Positions 3,782 through 55,689 of a DNA stretch of 64,000 nucleotides are shown in pieces (the first letter of the stretch is position 1; each line of letters opens with the position of its first letter). The DNA comes from Bacillus tequilensis KCTC 13622 (GTDB lineage Bacteria; Bacillota; Bacilli; Bacillales; Bacillaceae). Below the pieces are notes generated by a model that searched no databases, was not told where the DNA came from, and saw nothing but the letters and a program-made list of their open reading frames with translations. The position numbers were made by a program, and so were the translations under genes. The DNA is taken from the NCBI RefSeq assembly GCF_000507145.1, contig NZ_AYTO01000028.1, forward strand, positions 1 to 64,000. Reading direction: 5' to 3'.

Positions 3782-5440
3782 TTACTCTTTTCTCGAATAA
3801 AATATTCTTGAGATAAACAGGCCAATGACTCCTAACAAGATGAATAAGACCGCTCTCCAAACAAGATCAATTGAAGCAGAATCTATTAAAATCATTTTGG
3901 CTAGTGTAATGAATAAAAAGATCAGCCCGATTCGGTTCCATGTCTTGTCTTTGGTTGTGTAATAAACAGCGTACATCACAATGACAAAAATAAACCAAGA
4001 CAGGGATACACCGACGTTTACTGATACGCCGGCAATTCTATCCGTCATCCATATGGATAATTTACTGAAGAATACAAGCATCAGGAATGAAACAGCGTAT
4101 GAAACAACAATCGTGATTTGTTTATGCTGTATGTTTTTCGAATACAGATAGGCAGAAAATAGTGAGCTGATCAGCACCAGCCAAGAGACGATGCTGAGAA
4201 CGTGTAATGAATGTGCCGGGTATTGCATCAGGCCGCAGGCTGCCTGGAATAATACAATCACTCCGGCTATGCCGATCAGCCAGCTTTTTTTGCGGTAGGA
4301 CACGTAACACATCATCATTCCTTGTAACGTGAATATGATGTACAGCAAAATCTCATTTTCATCTAATGCATCCGCTGCTAATACATTAAAATAAATCATA
4401 GAAATGAGAAAAAACGTATGTTTGATTTCGGGAAATTCTTTTCTTTTCCAAAAGCTTACCAACAGGTACAACACAAATGCAGCAGTATAAAATGCGTATA
4501 ATGCTGTATCGCTCTTCATATAGAGGACAATTCCTGTGCTGAAAACGACAAAAGCTCCGATGGAAACGGCTGTGAGATAGACAGCTTTTTTAAATTGGCT
4601 GTTCGATCGTAAGGCTGAGAGGATCGTAATCGCCTGCTGTAGGATAAATACAGCAAGGGTCCAACCCGTCACCTGTGCATCTGTAAATGATAAGAAAGCA
4701 AAAATCGCTAATATGAAAGCATAGTTTGCTATATTCCATGCCACGATGTACTTTTGTTTGACGGTCTCATACATCAAGCCTGCGAAAACCAATGCCTCAT
4801 ATACATAAAAGATGTATTCGTTCCCATGTTCCCCGCCAAATAAAAAAGGATACAAGTAAACACCTGCGCCGATAATCGCAATCAGTGTTTGTGATCGATA
4901 CTTTCTTGATATGTACACTCCGCCTGCAACACCTGCCGCAAGAAGGATCATGGTAAGCGGGGTCGGTATGATCTGGTACAGCATATTCCCCGCAAATAGG
5001 GAAACTATGTAGACAATATTACTGCCCGCCAATAATGAAATACTCAGCACACTGCTATTTTTCTTATATTGCCTGCTTCCGAGAACATATAGCACTATGG
5101 AGACAATCAGTCCTGCAGCCACCCTCATATATGTGTTGACCCATCCTTTTTCAGCAGCCGCCGCAAACGCCCAAATCATGCCAAGAAGAAAAACAAAAAT
5201 AAAGATCTTTGGAAGCCAATTTCCCGCCAAGTTTTCTAACGTGCGGTTTTCTTTTGGCGGAGCCGGCGTCTTTTTTGGAACTTCGGCTTCTTTGTTGATT
5301 TTTGGGTTCTCTTCCGTTTTGACGATGGCTTGTTCTTTCTTGCTTCTAGAAAGGTATAGGATCTCCCTTTTGACACTTTCCAGTTCTTGTTCCAAGCGCC
5401 CAACTCTTTTGTTCAGTTCATCAATTTTTTTGTTCACCAT
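3782..5440 (-). CDS. large DUF2339-type polytopic membrane protein (YvcB-like)
   Basis: A 552-residue protein. Residues 1-45 form a heptad-patterned coiled coil (KIDELNKRVGRLEQELESVKREI), followed by a Lys/Pro/Glu-rich linker to about residue 78 and then roughly 14-16 hydrophobic segments to the C-terminus. This layout (N-terminal coiled coil, many membrane helices, no recognised catalytic motif) is that of DUF2339 proteins, whose function is unknown. The ATG follows GGGGAGAGA. It is the first gene of the unit that continues into the lipoprotein array. From gene order I take it to be the YvcB counterpart, but am less sure of the name than of the family. Confidence 0.8.
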   Translation of the reverse strand: MVNKKIDELNKRVGRLEQELESVKREILYLSRSKKEQAIVKTEENPKINKEAEVPKKTPAPPKENRTLENLAGNWLPKIFIFVFLLGMIWAFAAAAEKGWVNTYMRVAAGLIVSIVLYVLGSRQYKKNSSVLSISLLAGSNIVYIVSLFAGNMLYQIIPTPLTMILLAAGVAGGVYISRKYRSQTLIAIIGAGVYLYPFLFGGEHGNEYIFYVYEALVFAGLMYETVKQKYIVAWNIANYAFILAIFAFLSFTDAQVTGWTLAVFILQQAITILSALRSNSQFKKAVYLTAVSIGAFVVFSTGIVLYMKSDTALYAFYTAAFVLYLLVSFWKRKEFPEIKHTFFLISMIYFNVLAADALDENEILLYIIFTLQGMMMCYVSYRKKSWLIGIAGVIVLFQAACGLMQYPAHSLHVLSIVSWLVLISSLFSAYLYSKNIQHKQITIVVSYAVSFLMLVFFSKLSIWMTDRIAGVSVNVGVSLSWFIFVIVMYAVYYTTKDKTWNRIGLIFLFITLAKMILIDSASIDLVWRAVLFILLGVIGLFISRIFYSRKE

Positions 5441-5732: not shown

Positions 5733-6356
5733 TTATTTCTCAGTATGTCGTTTCTTCAATACATCGAGCACATCATCCAGCGGCAGGGCTTGTTCTCTGA
5801 GCAGGACAAGCAGGTGATACAGCAGGTCTGCCGCTTCCCATTTGAGCTCCTCGTGGTCTCGGTTTTTCGCGGCAATGATGACTTCAGATGCTTCTTCACC
5901 GACTTTTTTCAAAATCTTATCGACGCCTTCTCTGAAAAGGTATGTCGTGTAAGCTCCTTCAGGCATTTCCGCTTGGCGTTCCGCGATTACGCGTTCCAGC
6001 TCGTTCATAATGTCAAATCGGCCGGCAGCCTGTTCTTCTGTTTGTTCCTTTGTAAAACAGCTGTAGCTGCCAGTGTGGCATGCCGGGCCTGAGGGTTCTA
6101 CGAGCACGAGCAGTGCGTCTTGGTCACAGTCATACCGGATTTCTTTGACGGCTTGCGTGTTGCCTGAGGTTTCTCCTTTATGCCATAACGCTTGGCGAGA
6201 GCGGCTGTAAAACCATGTTTCTTTCGTTTCCAGCGTTTTTTCGTACGATTCCTTGTTCATATAGGCAAGTGTCAGTACTTCCTTACTTGCCGCATCCTGC
6301 ACGATGGCAGGGATTAACCCGTCCTCATTAAAACGCAGTTCATCTGCCTGTTTCAT
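5733..6356 (-). CDS. hisI: bifunctional phosphoribosyl-AMP cyclohydrolase / phosphoribosyl-ATP pyrophosphohydrolase
   Basis: 207 residues with two enzyme domains, catalysing the second and third steps of histidine synthesis in the cytoplasm. Residues 1-115 are the cyclohydrolase, with the metal-binding stretch [19 protein letters not shown] and nearby cysteines. Residues 115-207 are the pyrophosphohydrolase, with the MazG-like helix pattern [15 protein letters not shown] and WEAADLLYH. The start overlaps the hisF stop by 4 bases (ATGA), implying translational coupling. It is the last gene of the operon and is followed by a terminator. Confidence 0.97.
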
Positions 6357-27062: not shown

Positions 27063-27293
27063 ATGGAAAAAGACCCCAGTGACTATACAGTAACACAAGA
27101 ATCAGTGTTAAAGCTGATTCATGAACAAAAAAGAATGAATCGTGAAATGATCGCCGAGCTTGAACAGATTCATGGATCCCTTTCGATCTCTCACGATATT
27201 CAATACATAAAAGTACTGCTCGACAGCAGCAATACACATATTGTTCAAGATTTAATAAGTGTGAGTAAGCAGTTGTATAAGAAGACTTTGTAA
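27063..27293 (+). CDS. yvkN: small protein of unknown function (YvkN)
   Basis: A 76-residue, charged, probably helical protein without membrane segment or signal peptide. The ATG follows AAGGAGG with good spacing, and the frame sits alone between two minus-strand units. Gene order matches B. subtilis yvkN. I recognise no domain. Confidence 0.8.
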
Positions 27294-27409
27294 TTGCGGA
27301 AAAAGTTGCGTTTATTATAACAAAACAAAGCTAAAGGTTAGGTGACAGCATCTTGCCTTTTTTGTTTTGAAGGAACAAACAGTTCTCTGCCGTTACATAT
27401 AATTGTAAC

Positions 27410-27457
27410 AAAAAAAGCCTGCCGGCATGTCCAACGAATGGACTCTGCCAGCAGGCT
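27410..27457 (-). terminator. terminator of the second flagellin gene
   Basis: Minus strand: AGCCTGCTGGCAGAGTCCA pairs with TGGACATGCCGGCAGGCT (long stem, short loop), followed by T7. It lies 35 bases after the flagellin stop codon. Confidence 0.9.
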
Positions 27458-27491
27458 GTGACTATCAGAAAGAACGATAGCCGTTCAAAAA

Positions 27492-28313
27492 TTAACGTAA
27501 TAATTGAAGTACGTTTTGCGGCTGTTGGTTCGCTTGAGCAAGCATCGCTTGAGAAGCTTGAGAAAGAATGTTGTTCTTTGTGAACTCGCTCATTTCTTTC
27601 GCCATGTCAACGTCACGGATACGAGACTCAGCAGCTGTCAGGTTTTCACCAGAAGCGCTCAAGTTGTTGATTGTGTGCTCAAGACGGTTTTGTACCGCAC
27701 CGAGTTTAGCACGTTGACCTGAAACATTTGTAATTGCAGAATCAATTTTTTCGATCTCAGTGTCAAAACTAAAATCATCCGCTGCAACATCAATACCTTT
27801 TACTCCTAAAGTTGTTGCATCCATGTTGCCAATTGTAACATTAATGTTTTGGTTAGCATTTGCACCAATTTGGAATGTAAATCCTGCTGTTACAGTACCG
27901 TCTAATAATTTTTTTCCGTTAAATTCAGTACGTTGAGAGATACCATCGATCTCGTCAGTCAAAGCATCCATTTCATCTTTAATTGCAGTTAAATCCTCTT
28001 TTTGTTGTGTCCCAGTGTTACCCGCTTGAACAGTAAGTTCACGCATACGTTGAAGGATCGCATGAGTTTCAGTCAATGCACCCTCAGCTGTTTGGATAAG
28101 AGAGATTCCATCTTGAGAGTTTTTAGAAGCCATTTCAAGACCTCTGATTTGTCCTCTCATTTTTTCAGAGATCGCAAGACCCGCTGCGTCATCTCCCGCA
28201 CGGTTGATACGAAGACCTGAAGAAAGTTTCTCCATGTTCTTTTGGCTAGCACCGTTGTTTGAGCCTAAACGGTTTAGTGTGTTAAGTGCTGCGATATTGT
28301 GGTTAATTCTCAT
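27492..28313 (-). CDS. yvzB: second, full-length flagellin (yvzB locus)
   Basis: 273 residues from the ATG at 28313, preceded by GGAGG. Both conserved flagellin ends are complete: MRINHNIAALNTLNRLG to about residue 100 (D0/D1), and the last ~90 residues ending NVLQLLR. Only the central part (about 100-190) differs from Hag. Bases 27532-27701 are identical to the matching part of hag over 170 positions, and the 5' 236 bases differ at about six, implying gene conversion. In strain 168 the gene at this place is, as I recall, a truncated flagellin-like ORF; here it can encode a filament subunit. The leader resembles that of hag. Confidence 0.93.
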   Translation of the reverse strand: MRINHNIAALNTLNRLGSNNGASQKNMEKLSSGLRINRAGDDAAGLAISEKMRGQIRGLEMASKNSQDGISLIQTAEGALTETHAILQRMRELTVQAGNTGTQQKEDLTAIKDEMDALTDEIDGISQRTEFNGKKLLDGTVTAGFTFQIGANANQNINVTIGNMDATTLGVKGIDVAADDFSFDTEIEKIDSAITNVSGQRAKLGAVQNRLEHTINNLSASGENLTAAESRIRDVDMAKEMSEFTKNNILSQASQAMLAQANQQPQNVLQLLR

Positions 28314-28323
28314 GTGTAACATA

Positions 28324-28373
28324 CCTCCATGTGTATATGTTTTGAAATCAAAGACTTCCTTTTCTTTGATTTC
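28324..28373 (-). promoter_or_regulatory. CsrA-type leader hairpin and Shine-Dalgarno of the second flagellin
   Basis: Minus strand: GAAATCAAAG (28373-28364), loop AAAAGGAAGT, CTTTGATTTC (28353-28344) is a perfect 10-bp hairpin presenting GGA in its loop. 15 bases further comes ATGGAGG, the Shine-Dalgarno sequence with a second GGA. This is the two-site arrangement used by CsrA on the hag leader. Binding is inferred, not shown. Confidence 0.55.
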
Positions 28374-28479
28374 TGGCGTATGAGATTCCATTAAAGCTTC
28401 TAACTTTATCAGGATACTTTAAACCCCTTATTAGGGCTTTTTCACCTAATATGGAAAACATATTCGCCTTTCAATTCAT

Positions 28480-28487
28480 ATATCGAC
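28480..28487 (-). promoter_or_regulatory. possible sigma-D -10 element of the second flagellin
   Basis: GTCGATAT on the minus strand resembles the sigma-D -10 (GCCGATAT). The matching -35 (TAAA at 15 bases) is not well conserved; CATTTACAAAG is the nearest. Expression by sigma-D is possible but weaker than for hag. Confidence 0.4.
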
Positions 28488-28581
28488 AGCTCTTTGTAAA
28501 TGTTCAGGCGTTTTTCCAAAGAAATTTTCTCCACTAAAAAATGAAATGATGACACAAATGTGAACTTCACCCTCTAGGCCA

Positions 28582-28629
28582 TAAAAAAAGCTTGCCTGCT
28601 AAGCCCAAAGATGGACTTGCTGACAAGCT
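28582..28629 (-). terminator. uvrA terminator
   Basis: Minus strand: AGCTTGTCAGCAAGTCC and GGGCTTAGCAGGCAAGCT form a long stem, followed by T7. The DNA from here to the flagellin start (28314-28652) holds only this terminator, the possible promoter and the leader hairpin. Confidence 0.9.
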
Positions 28630-28652
28630 GAAACCTCTCTGAATAGAGGATA

Positions 28653-31526
28653 TTAAGATGTAGCTGTTTCTTTCGCTTTCAAGATCGATGTCATGCGTTT
28701 TTTGTCACGCTCCATAACAGGCTTCAGATAACGGCCTGTATACGATTCTTCGACTTCGGTGATTTCCTCAGGTGTACCTGACGCGACAATGGTTCCGCCA
28801 CCTGCTCCGCCTTCAGGCCCCAGATCCACAATATAATCCGCCGTCTTAATGATATCAAGATTATGCTCAATAACGAGGACTGTATCGCCATTGTCCACCA
28901 AACGCTGAAGCACGACAAGGAGTCTGGCGATATCGTCGACGTGCAAGCCCGTCGTCGGCTCATCTAAAATGTAGAGGGTGCGCCCCGTTGAGCGTTTGTG
29001 CAGCTCCGATGCGAGCTTCACACGCTGCGCTTCTCCGCCTGACAAGGTCGTTGCCGGCTGGCCCAGCGTAATATAACCTAAGCCAACATCATAAAGGGTT
29101 TGGAGCTTACGCTTGATTTTCGGGATGTTTTCAAAGAAAGAAAGAGCATCTTCAACAGTCATATCAAGCACATCGGAAATGCTTTTTCCTTTGTACGTCA
29201 CTTCTAACGTTTCCCGGTTATAACGTTTGCCGTGGCATACCTCACACGGAACGTACACGTCAGGAAGGAAATGCATTTCAATTTTAATAATTCCGTCTCC
29301 GCGGCAGGCTTCACATCGGCCGCCCTTCACATTAAAGCTGAAACGGCCTTTTTTATAGCCGCGGACCTTCGCTTCATTTGTCTGCGCGAATACATCGCGA
29401 ATGTCGTCAAACACTCCGGTGTATGTCGCAGGATTGGATCTCGGCGTTCTTCCAATTGGCGCCTGGTCAATGTCTATGACTTTGTCCAAGTGATCCAAGC
29501 CTTTTATTTCTTTATGGCTGCCAGGCTTTGCTTTCGCTTTATGAAGCTTTTGCGCCAGTGCCTTGTGTAAAATTTCATTGATCAGGGTACTCTTCCCTGA
29601 GCCGGAAACCCCTGTAACTGCTGTGAATGTTCCAAGCGGGAACTTGGCATTCACTTTCTTCAGGTTGTTTTCTGCAGCGCCTTTTATCTCAATGTAACGG
29701 CCGTCCGGCTTTCTTCTTTCAGGAGGCAATGGGATGAACTTTTCCCCTGATAAATAGCTTCCTGTCAATGAATCTGGATCTTTCATCACTTCTTCCGGCG
29801 TTCCCGCAGACATCACCTGTCCGCCATGAATGCCGGCTCCCGGCCCTATATCGATTAAATAATCGGCTGCCATCATTGTGTCCTCATCATGTTCGACAAC
29901 AATCAGCGTGTTTCCAAGGTCTCTCATATTTTTCAAGGCACTGATCAATCGGTCGTTATCACGCTGATGCAGCCCGATTGACGGCTCATCTAAAATATAA
30001 AGCACACCGGATAAACGTGAGCCAATTTGCGTTGCCAGCCTGATACGCTGCGCCTCTCCCCCGGACAATGTTCCCGCCGCCCTGCTTAATGTCAGATAAT
30101 CAAGGCCGACTTTGTCTAAAAAGCTTAAACGCTCCACAATTTCGCGCAAGATCAAATTGGCAATCTGCATATCCTTCTCAGAAAGGGTAAGGCCTTTGAA
30201 GAAAGTGAGTGCATCAGTTACAGACTGCTCGGTAATTTTTCCGATGTGGCGGCCGTCAATCAGTACGGCAAGCGCTTCTCTCTTTAACCGGTAGCCTTTA
30301 CATGTTGGACAAGCCTTTTGAGACATATACTGTTCCATTTGCTCACGAATGAAATCAGAGCTTGTCTCCTTATAGCGTCTTTCAATATTGCGCAAGACGC
30401 CTTCAAATTGAATGTCGCCTTCTCGTATTTGCCCAAAGTCATTTTCATAACGGAAATAAATCAAATCATCTCCGCTGCCATACAGCACTTTATCCAACTG
30501 ATCCTTCGGCAGCTCTTTTACCGGCACATCCATATCAATTCCATAGTGGGTGCAGACCGCATGAAGCAGCTGCGGGTAATATTGTGAGCTGATCGGTGTC
30601 CAAGGGGCGACCGCATTCTCCTTTAATGATAATTCTTGATTGGGGATGACGAGATCCGCATCCACTTCAAGCTTCATTCCGAGACCGTCACACGTCGGAC
30701 ACGCGCCGAACGGGCTGTTGAACGAAAACAGCCGCGGCTCAAGTTCGCCAATTGAAAATCCGCAGTGCGGACAGGCATGATGCTCACTGAACATCAGCTC
30801 TTCCTTACCAATGACATCAATCATAATCCGTCCTTCACCTAAGCGAAGCGCTGTTTCCAATGAATCAGACAGACGGGCTGACACGCCTTCTTTCACCACA
30901 ATCCGGTCAATGACAACCTCAATCGAATGCTTTTTATTCTTTTCTAATTCGATATCATCAGAAAGCTCTGCCATCTCGCCGTCAATTCTGACTCTGACAT
31001 AACCTTGTTTTCTGATCTGGTCCAGCACCTTGACATGAGCGCCTTTGCGGCCTGAAACAATTGGAGCCAGAACTTGAAGCTTCGTCCGTTCCGGGTATTC
31101 CAAAATTCTGTCCACCATCTGCTCAATGGTCTGCGACGTAATCTCAATCCCGTGCTCAGGGCAATGCGGCTTTCCTACTCTCGCATACAAAAGGCGAAGA
31201 TAATCATAAATCTCAGTTACCGTACCGACAGTTGATCTCGGATTGCGGCTCGTTGTTTTCTGATCGATGCTGATGGCGGGAGACAGTCCCTCAATCGCGT
31301 CAACATCCGGCTTATCCATTTGCCCTAAAAACTGGCGGGCATAGGCAGACAGCGACTCGACATACCGTCTCTGCCCTTCTGCATATATAGTGTCAAAGGC
31401 AAGGGAGGATTTCCCTGATCCTGACAAACCCGTGACAACGACAAGCTGGTCTCTTGGAATTGTTACATCGATATTTTTCAGGTTATGCGCCCTGGCTCCC
31501 TTCACCTCTATCCGATCCATAGCCAT
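28653..31526 (-). CDS. uvrA: excinuclease ABC subunit A
   Basis: 957 residues. DNA damage-recognition ATPase of nucleotide excision repair that loads UvrB. Two ABC modules: Walker [15 protein letters not shown] (about 31-44) and [13 protein letters not shown] (about 640), ABC signatures [17 protein letters not shown] and [15 protein letters not shown], Walker [13 protein letters not shown] and [12 protein letters not shown]. Zinc-finger cysteines are visible in [19 protein letters not shown] and [14 protein letters not shown]. It starts 7 bases after uvrB, hence one SOS-controlled operon. Confidence 0.98.
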
Positions 31527-54041: not shown

Positions 54042-54896
54042 TTAACGTAACAATTGAAGTACGTTTTGCGGCTGTTGGTTTGCTTGAGCAAGCATCGCTT
54101 GAGAAGCTTGAGAAAGAATGTTGTTCTTTGTGAACTCGCTCATTTCTTTCGCCATGTCAACGTCACGGATACGAGACTCAGCAGCTGTCAGGTTTTCACC
54201 AGAAGCGCTCAAGTTGTTGATTGTGTGCTCAAGACGGTTTTGTACCGCACCAAGTTTTGAACGTTGAGTTGAAACATTGTTAATAGCAGTATCAATCAAA
54301 CCAAGCTGTGTATCAAATGCTGTTGCATCATCTTTGAATGCAGTAACATCGATAGCGTCAACTCCAAGTCCAGTTGCACTCATATCACCGATATTAACTG
54401 CAAGTTGCTGCCCTGCGTTTGCACCGATTTGGAATGTTAATTTATTAGTTGCAAAGTCGCCATTAAGGAGCTTCTTACCGTTAAATTCAGTTCTATCAGA
54501 GATACCTTTACTTCCACCTGTCATACCACCAATTTCTTCTTTCAAAGAATTGATCTCTTCTTGGATAGCACCTAAGTCAGTAGCGTCTTGAGTACCAGTA
54601 TTGTTTGCTTGTACTGCAAGTTCACGAACACGTTGAAGGATAGAGTGAGTTTCAGTTAATGCACCCTCAGCTGTTTGGATAAGAGAGATTCCATCTTGAG
54701 AGTTTTTAGAAGCCATATCAAGACCTCTGATTTGTCCTCTCATTTTTTCAGAGATCGCAAGACCAGCTGCATCATCTCCCGCACGGTTGATACGAAGACC
54801 TGAAGAAAGCTTCTCCATGTTCTTTTGGCTAGCACCGTTGTTTGCGCCTAAACGGTTTAATGTGTTAAGTGCTGCGATATTGTGGTTAATTCTCAT
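54042..54896 (-). CDS. hag: flagellin (major filament subunit)
   Basis: 284 residues. Complete D0/D1 ends: MRINHNIAALNTLNRLG ... and ... LSQASQAMLAQANQQPQNVLQLLR. The central, surface-exposed part (about 100-205) is specific to this strain and makes the protein shorter than the 304 residues I recall for strain 168. GGGAGG precedes the ATG, a CsrA-binding leader hairpin lies upstream, and a sigma-D promoter is clear. Hag is exported through the flagellar secretion system and sequestered by FliW when it accumulates. Confidence 0.97.
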   Translation of the reverse strand: MRINHNIAALNTLNRLGANNGASQKNMEKLSSGLRINRAGDDAAGLAISEKMRGQIRGLDMASKNSQDGISLIQTAEGALTETHSILQRVRELAVQANNTGTQDATDLGAIQEEINSLKEEIGGMTGGSKGISDRTEFNGKKLLNGDFATNKLTFQIGANAGQQLAVNIGDMSATGLGVDAIDVTAFKDDATAFDTQLGLIDTAINNVSTQRSKLGAVQNRLEHTINNLSASGENLTAAESRIRDVDMAKEMSEFTKNNILSQASQAMLAQANQQPQNVLQLLR

Positions 54897-54904
54897 TGTT
54901 TTGT

Positions 54905-54942
54905 TCCTCCCTGAATATGTTTTTAGGCACGTCCTTGTGCCT
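54905..54942 (-). promoter_or_regulatory. hag leader with two CsrA sites
   Basis: Minus strand: AGGCAC-AAGGAC-GTGCCT (54942-54925) is a hairpin with GGA in the loop (site BS1); 14 bases on, CAGGGAGG is the Shine-Dalgarno sequence with the second GGA (BS2). CsrA bound to both blocks Hag translation in B. subtilis. Confidence 0.9.
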
Positions 54943-55029: not shown

Positions 55030-55058
55030 AAAAAAATCCTCACTTTTTTTGTGAGGAT
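55030..55058 (-). terminator. terminator overlapping the end of csrA
   Basis: Minus strand TCCTCAC, A-rich loop, GTGAGGA, then TTTTTTTATTTT. The csrA stop codon lies inside the downstream arm of the hairpin. Confidence 0.85.
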
Positions 55059-55264
55059 AATGCGGAGATCACATCGCTGGATAACGCTGCAGCACGGTTA
55101 TTTTCTTCCTGAATGGTCAAATAAATTTCTTTCCTGTGAATGTCGATATGTTTTGGGGCGTCAATTCCGAGTTTCACTTGATCACCCTCAACCGCAATGA
55201 CTTTCACTTCAATATCAGCACCTATTTGAATCGCTTCGTTTATTTTCCGCGATAAAACTAGCAT
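55040..55264 (-). CDS. csrA: carbon storage regulator CsrA
   Basis: 74 residues, an RNA-binding dimer ([15 protein letters not shown]; binding Arg in [10 protein letters not shown] near residue 44). It represses translation of hag by binding GGA sites in its leader and is antagonised by FliW. The start overlaps the fliW end by 7 bases. The second flagellin leader offers the same kind of target. Confidence 0.97.
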
Positions 55265-55689
55265 GATTCTCCTCCAATCAGATGCTTTGTCGTATATGAG
55301 GAGTCGTGTAAAACGACTTGCTTAGCCATCATGTTTTTGCGATTTACAATAATGGGAGCCAATAAATTGGCAGTAGATTTTTCGAATGGCTCAGCCATCG
55401 TCAAGATTGTCATGACTTCTACATCTTCAATATGATCGATATCCAAAAGTTCCGCAGTTGATTCATCAAGGTCAAACTCATAATTCTTAAAAAAGATGAA
55501 CGGACTTACAACGATGAACGCAAGATTTTCCGAAGTGACGGACTGCAGCGCCACGAATGGAGAGTCTTTTGAAAGCGGAAGAATGACGAACTGTTTTTCC
55601 TCTATAAAGCCGGGAATCCCGTTTTCAAAAAGAATAATTTGCTCCTCTTTTACGTTCATTTGGCCATGGTATTTCGTATGAATGATCAT
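55258..55689 (-). CDS. fliW: flagellar assembly factor FliW
   Basis: A 143-residue beta-rich protein ([46 protein letters not shown]). FliW binds either Hag or CsrA: when Hag is exported, FliW is free to inhibit CsrA allosterically, allowing more Hag translation. Placement directly before csrA and near hag reflects this loop. Confidence 0.96.

Follow-up and report, generated by a model that had tools for sequence, protein, structure and literature searches.

A second flagellin gene in Bacillus tequilensis with a hag-like two-GGA leader and a probable link to phage csrA–flagellin cassettes

An intact second flagellin gene stands at the yvzB position of Bacillus tequilensis KCTC 13622. We consider it probable that this gene works as a second flagellin, that it is driven by SigD and controlled by CsrA and FliW, and that its leader came from a phage-type csrA–flagellin cassette. 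What is new here is that one viral contig has an intact csrA that is preceded by a similar promoter, finishes in a near-identical hairpin and is immediately followed by a flagellin gene. Positions refer to the window, that is, the whole stretch of 64,000 nucleotides that was analysed. The gene names yvzB, hag, uvrA, flgL and blyA are presumptive, and the genome G036 is the one that we take to be B. subtilis strain 168.

The flagellin gene at the yvzB position

The coding sequence (27492–28313, minus strand) lies between uvrA (28653–31526) and an opposite-strand ORF of 76 aa (27063–27293). It encodes a protein of 273 aa with intact D0/D1 ends and a short variable centre. The sequence-only reading of this DNA had described a full-length second flagellin, and this description holds: the frame is intact, and both domains of bacterial flagellins were found well above their Pfam cut-offs (Flagellin_N, residues 3–142, 166.8 bits against 26.6; Flagellin_C, residues 187–272, 118.1 bits against 23). 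The ATG at 28313 is the likely start, because small indels throw the frame from 28391 out of register between species. These indels fall between the leader hairpin and the start, and the upstream extension in the 299-aa ORF that begins at 28391 and crosses the leader was for this reason not accepted as part of the protein. Four Flagellin_N matches were found in the whole genome (3.98 Mb, 50 contigs), namely yvzB, hag, a weaker match near 56.8–57.2 kb that is probably flgL, and a gene on contig C29. The passages on yvzB that were retrieved from the literature report neither a full-length gene nor a CsrA leader.

By eye, residues 1–72 of YvzB show two differences from Hag of strain 168, and the last 71 residues are identical. 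The closest sequences with a solved structure are flagellin chains near-identical to the same Hag. Passages of PMC6070490 state that FliW contacts flagellin through the N-terminal part and D1-C, that FliS does so through the C end, and that the N-terminal 72 residues of Hag are enough for FliW binding. When the sequences were compared, the FliW- and FliS-binding regions were almost unaltered in YvzB.

We found yvzB intact in six genomes, and a seventh copy (G014, Bacillus sp. SKDU12) is cut at a contig end. The DNA around the gene is 90–91% identical to that of B. spizizenii TU-B-10 and B. inaquosorum, which places the host in the B. subtilis group. Strain 168 carries a relative at the same place beside uvrA that is similar in the C-terminal two thirds; unlike the window gene, it has lost the counterpart of window 28043–28574, that is, the promoter, the leader and the first ~89 codons. 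This agrees with the truncated relative in strain 168 of which the sequence-only reading had spoken. No yvzB is present at the site in three near relatives (G033, G015 and G009; in G033 the missing stretch is that of window 27294–28630), nor beside uvrA in five more distant genomes (flanks L175, L176, L177, L187 and L188). The terminator regions on the two sides of yvzB (28583–28652 and 27410–27479) are 71% alike over 72 nt, and like terminators in these places could provide a recombination route for insertion or loss.

The truncation in strain 168, the absence from G033, G015 and G009, and the TGAA that replaces TAAA in the window promoter would all suit a decaying leftover, meaning a dispensable and little expressed gene that is kept by chance, with a leader preserved by the shortness of time. 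We consider this unlikely. The gene is intact in six genomes, dN/dS among four yvzB orthologues with a yvzB-type centre is 0.05–0.28 (six pairs), and the leader hairpin is kept next to an upstream stretch of leader with indels and an average difference of 18%.

The centre of the gene is more diverged than its ends. Of the six yvzB genes that are complete, those of G011 (B. inaquosorum) and G039 have hag-type centres; the G011 centre is 96% identical to hag of G009, and the G039 centre is nearest to hag of G039 itself (73%). Central domains are strongly diverged, with mean dS > 1, against ~0.25–0.32 at the ends (~0.25 for paralogues of the same genome, 0.31 for yvzB and hag across genomes, and, for yvzB orthologues, 0.29 and 0.25). 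Such values could be expected of a recombination store, in which the locus would mainly supply central-domain variants to hag. We regard this explanation as quite improbable: a silent store would not need a promoter, a Shine-Dalgarno sequence and a conserved hairpin, and signs of conversion at the ends within a genome are weak, the own hag being the nearest hag to yvzB in only one of six genes at the N end and two of six at the C end. The same data lent little support to strongly concerted evolution of the two genes, and this reading was set aside.

The yvzB leader and its hairpin

Two putative CsrA sites precede the start on the minus strand. The Shine-Dalgarno sequence GGAGG (28324–28328, in the context ACACAUGGAGGU), which would be site 2, lies 10 nt upstream of the ATG. 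The candidate site 1 is a hairpin at 28344–28373 (GAAAUCAAAGA-AAAGGAAG-UCUUUGAUUUC), with a GGA in its loop of 8 nt. The sequence-only reading had proposed a perfect hairpin of 10 bp; this is present, and one further A-U pair extends the stem to 11 bp. Both the GGAGG and the hag-like order of the leader, a loop GGA followed by a GGA in the Shine-Dalgarno sequence, were found as it had described them. An equal hairpin appeared in none of 3000 dinucleotide shuffles, and any GGA-loop hairpin (≥4 bp, score ≥6) in 143 of 3000. The same test was passed by 4 of 35 window ORFs (yvzB 14, hag 10, others 7 and 6), hence by 2 of the 33 ORFs besides yvzB and hag; the ORFs had at least 150 codons from stop to stop and a Shine-Dalgarno sequence, and some are surely non-genes.

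We then compared the leader among 44 Bacillus genomes. A full-length match was obtained in seven of them (G000, which is the genome of the window, G005, G011, G014, G034, which is B. spizizenii, G037 and G039), and the last 37 nt only were matched in ten further genomes. The 26-nt hairpin pattern, with up to two mismatches, has one copy in each of the seven genomes and none in the other 37, and a reversed control pattern was absent from all 44. In the alignment of the seven leaders, 27 of 30 hairpin columns are invariant, compared with 53 of 106 columns in the stretch from promoter to hairpin (Fisher p = 4.9e-5); the mean pairwise distance is 0.038 in the hairpin versus 0.179 in the upstream leader. 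Stem pairing is kept in all 77 of 77 pair cells, so that both arms are conserved, as the sequence-only reading requires. The compensatory changes that it had also named were looked for and are absent: three stem pairs vary, each on one side and to G-U, and no two-sided change was seen in the 11-bp stem among the seven leaders. In these leaders the support for the yvzB hairpin is conservation, not covariation.

A consensus fold of the whole leader recovered the same 11-bp helix. One of its 44 pairs has a two-sided change, which is located outside this helix, and the other helices of the fold were given no weight. The Rfam scan of the leader gave nothing above threshold; its one sub-threshold match, cow-rumen-4, was dismissed (23 bits against a threshold of 48.5, E 0.2).

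The hairpin might have a role other than CsrA binding, either as an RNA-stability hairpin or as a palindromic DNA operator. The near-perfect inverted repeat suits an operator, and stem changes are few. Passages of PMC7652899 give RUACARGGAUGU as the SELEX consensus for CsrA and describe the selected hairpins as mostly of ≤4 pairs; by this comparison the yvzB stem of 11 bp is longer than is typical, and together with the 8-nt loop it departs from the SELEX-typical hairpins. We hold such a role to be improbable in view of three observations: the GGA-containing loop is invariant in seven of seven leaders, all three stem changes preserve RNA pairing as G-U, and the placement is that of the GGA-loop hairpins that most Bacillus flagellin leaders bear on other stem sequences (84 of 91, see below).

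SigD promoters have the consensus TAAA-N15-GCCGATAT. A SigD-like promoter, TGAA-N15-GTCGATAT, is found at 28480–28506 (minus strand). Its position is conserved in the seven genomes, where a promoter of the type TAAA-N15-G[CT]CGATAT is aligned with two exceptions, the TGAA of the window (TAAA in the other six) and the −10 element of G034, in which two bases are changed. The window copy has two mismatches, a level that chance sites also reach (14 window sites with at most two mismatches against 6.5 expected by chance); the hag promoter likewise has two mismatches to the SigD consensus. At the other end of the gene, an intrinsic terminator with a stem, a UUCG loop and a T run was recognized by eye at 27410–27458 (minus strand), in agreement with the strong terminator claimed before.

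We regard CsrA-FliW regulation of yvzB as probable. SigD would transcribe the gene in motile cells from the promoter at 28480–28506, and the mRNA would begin with some 160 nt of leader. A CsrA dimer bound to the loop GGA and the Shine-Dalgarno GGA would block ribosome entry, and FliW would release the mRNA from CsrA. Cytoplasmic Hag, and YvzB with its Hag-matching ends, would capture FliW, and as a result Hag and YvzB would be made only during their export. YvzB would be built into the filament as an alternative or minor subunit and would expose another surface than Hag.

Flagellin leaders in the genus Bacillus

The main flagellin gene hag (54042–54896, minus strand, 284 aa) is located in the same window as yvzB, and upstream of it are the host csrA (55040–55264, minus strand), whose product has the FliW-binding tail with N55, and fliW (55258–55689, minus strand). 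The hag leader of B. subtilis is reportedly under CsrA-FliW control. Like that hag, yvzB has a SigD-type promoter, a GGA-loop hairpin and a Shine-Dalgarno sequence with GGA, and csrA and fliW are present in the genome. Unlike hag, it has no csrA directly upstream, its CsrA sites are putative, and its stem is longer and of other sequence; the hag hairpin of the window is AGGCAC-AAGGAC-GUGCCU (54925–54942, minus strand), with the loop AAGGAC in the place of AAAGGAAG. The sequence-only reading had called the stem sequence unrelated to that of hag. This is correct for the stem but not for the spacer AAAACATAT after it, which is common to both leaders.

We searched the flagellin genes of the genus for a GGA-loop hairpin before the Shine-Dalgarno sequence and found it in 84 of 91 (43 of 44 Bacillus genomes; G004 yields no flagellin gene for this set because a contig end interrupts the gene there). 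The 91 genes are non-independent, as leaders are common to tandem copies. Among the genes that failed, the stem was too weak in three (G000 C29, G018 1201977 and G019 C11), and no hairpin was found in four (G006 402682, G007 C26, G027 C3 and G030 3294860). Two genes (G001 C19 and G022 970389) pass by stems distant from the Shine-Dalgarno sequence that are probably not CsrA sites. The stems are of at least three types: GCAC in hag and its relatives, AGAC in tandem flagellins from the B. pumilus group, and that of yvzB. The two-GGA design is thus the rule for flagellin leaders in Bacillus, and the yvzB leader represents one of its variants. Seven tandem flagellins each are present in G006 (C2:395836-403629) and G030 (C7:3288003-3295811), six of the seven in each case with a hag-type GGA hairpin.

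Phage csrA–flagellin cassettes and the yvzB leader

The idea that the yvzB leader copies the hag design is right for the two-GGA layout, but the leader has a nearer relative in phages, namely the 3' end of a csrA located ahead of a flagellin gene. In the viral contig L206 (IMG/VR 2716885011_000001), a promoter (TATAAACATTCAGGAAGTGGTGTCGATAT, from 4710) is followed by an intact csrA (4782–4970) and a flagellin gene (from 5001). The last codons of this csrA, GAAGTCAAAGAAAGGGAAGTCTTTGATTTC, are the yvzB hairpin with one pairing-neutral stem change and one loop change, and a similar promoter and the Shine-Dalgarno region are also common to L206 and yvzB. No other exact match to the hairpin pattern was found in the viral collection, from which records near the B. 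tequilensis genome were possibly left out, and the cassette DNA of L206 had no match in 50,697 phage records. Among 80 genomes of the family it matched nine places in eight genomes, namely the C29 cassette, all seven yvzB leaders and one flagellin start region in G018.

The whole yvzB leaders matched the L206 cassette better than 1000 of 1000 shuffles in seven of seven cases. Their matches to the host csrA were mostly at chance level, except in two of the seven leaders, for which few shuffles were as good (8 of 1000 in G005 and 15 of 1000 in G014). The stretch from promoter to hairpin showed no similarity to phage csrA, with 28–81% of shuffles as good, and a CsrA profile scan of the yvzB leader found no csrA relic. 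A resemblance seen by eye (EALLES / DAPKEF) had no statistical support, and a relic is not claimed. Unlike yvzB, the phage cassettes (L206, C29 and EZ-2018a) retain a csrA directly upstream of the flagellin gene. As neither a csrA nor a demonstrable relic of one is present in its leader, yvzB probably derives from a phage-type csrA–flagellin cassette but does not itself belong to that class. Common descent with the L206 cassette is well supported for the hairpin and Shine-Dalgarno region and fairly supported for the promoter, where the match is partly mere consensus. By this account a phage-type cassette would have been the source of the hairpin and the Shine-Dalgarno region, and probably of the promoter as well; csrA would have been lost or overwritten, and the hairpin, formerly its last codons, retained. 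The loss of csrA is what we infer from these comparisons; events may also have run in the reverse direction, with csrA placed before a pre-existing hairpin.

The B. tequilensis genome carries a csrA–flagellin pair of its own. The C29 flagellin (305 aa), the third of this genome, is on a prophage-like contig of 123,902 bases that is matched at 100% by an IMG/VR viral contig of equal length, and families of endolysins, integrases and phage sigma factors surround it. Directly upstream of the flagellin gene, and overlapping its start, is an intact CsrA homologue (53.5 bits against a cut-off of 27) that lacks the asparagine needed for FliW binding (the pair is L179 3786–4965, equal to G000 contig C29 31785–32964). 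A short GGA hairpin is located inside this csrA reading frame. Bacillus phage EZ-2018a (B. pumilus; L189) has a flagellin 72% identical to YvzB, preceded by a divergent CsrA-like ORF that scores below the cut-off (24.7 bits); flagellin matches came from 12 phage records in all, and those other than EZ-2018a are <60% identical.

A profile scan gave 14 flagellin-bearing IMG/VR contigs. A CsrA-like ORF is found just upstream of the flagellin gene in nine of these (L200, which is C29, L201, L202, L203, L206, L207, L208, L210 and L213), five of which (L200, L202, L207, L208 and L213) themselves supplied the CsrA scan profile; L192, L195, L196 and L197 (identical to L202, L207, L208 and L213) had first been detected by a profile built without them, and the CsrA match of L210 is part of a longer ORF. 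The other five (L204, L205, L209, L211 and L212) have no upstream CsrA-like ORF, the upstream DNA of L209 being cut off. In 3300033128_000043, a CsrA-like gene and the flagellin start are at one end and the remainder of the flagellin gene at the other. Beyond the nine, pairs are present in L199/L193 and in L189 (EZ-2018a); across all these pairs the CsrA tails are very different. Among the nine, neighbours were scanned in C29, L192, L195, L196 and L197. Terminase, portal or helicase genes occur close to the pair in the last three, and the neighbours of L192 include no family of known phage function; no TnpB/TldR was found among the scanned neighbour proteins of the phage pairs, which are a part of all neighbours.

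The pair is seldom seen in whole genomes: among the 44 scanned, only G000 has a second CsrA above the cut-off. G019 has a below-cut-off CsrA beside its flagellin gene, and for about 12 kb its contig shows 91–93% identity to EZ-2018a. That phages can carry CsrA was known before: the C29 CsrA matches 30 annotated phage records, of which 28 are Vibrio phages, and PHROGs includes a CsrA-like family. The host residues R44 and E46 are invariant in the host CsrA and the seven phage-type CsrAs aligned with it. At the position of host N55, none of the seven has an asparagine, with short tails that make the alignment uncertain there. A passage of PMC7829508 gives N55 as required for FliW binding, and the phage CsrAs may thus escape FliW. 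No description of phage csrA–flagellin pairs was found in the literature covered on phage CsrA and flagellin, which was a small part of the papers listed and included few subscription papers.

Comparable cases occur elsewhere in the genus. G018, G022 and G001 (B. altitudinis 41KF2b) have a flagellin gene outside their tandem locus, in a common island of ~1.34 kb (L222 5643–6983; L224 6094–7393; L227 925–2219) that is similar in size to the yvzB island missing from G033. In G018 it stands among ACCA-domain, MarR and collagen-repeat genes, and in G001 beside sulfate permease, SBF and NamZ genes. At the start of the G018 gene, 455 nt of DNA share 88% identity with the csrA–flagellin junction of EZ-2018a, and by eye its csrA frame of this type is shifted. 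The leader of the second flagellin of G028 resembles the end of the C29 csrA (L223 about 6040–6110; L179 about 4720–4770). Its short hairpin, GGC-AAGGAU-GCC, compares with GAU-AAGGAU-AUC in C29, so that two of three pairs are changed on both sides (by eye); this is suggestive only, because the C29 stretch is also coding.

It is possible, though in our view rather doubtful, that yvzB is the remainder of a domesticated phage cassette, that phage CsrA evades FliW and silences hag on lysogeny, and that stranded cassettes become second flagellins. Large temperate phages of Bacillus and relatives would then bear a flagellin behind a FliW-insensitive CsrA. On lysogeny the phage CsrA, acting at the GGA hairpins, would silence hag (and yvzB), and the phage flagellin would replace or join the host filament; cassettes in the chromosome would lose csrA, keep the hairpin and become second flagellins. 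The TldR-FliCP prophages described in passages of PMC13418256 are alike in that a phage flagellin is tied to a regulator possibly acting on host flagellin. Unlike the phage csrA–flagellin pairs, they are enterobacterial, and their RNA-guided repressor TldR acts on DNA. According to the same passages, no prophage-encoded flagellins were known before the TldR-linked genes, and csrA-tldR-fliC loci occur in chromosomes; the paper nowhere mentions Bacillus. If the domesticated-cassette account is true, phage CsrA-flagellin would be a translational counterpart of the TldR phages.

The Hag-FliW-CsrA circuit has already been measured. On the reading that we prefer, in which yvzB is a working second flagellin under CsrA-FliW control, it appears that in several close relatives a second mRNA and a second protein take part in the same Hag-FliW-CsrA titration. 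The likely phage ancestry of the yvzB leader adds interest to this reading, and the phage cassettes suggest that the circuit may be both a target of takeover and a source of second flagellins.
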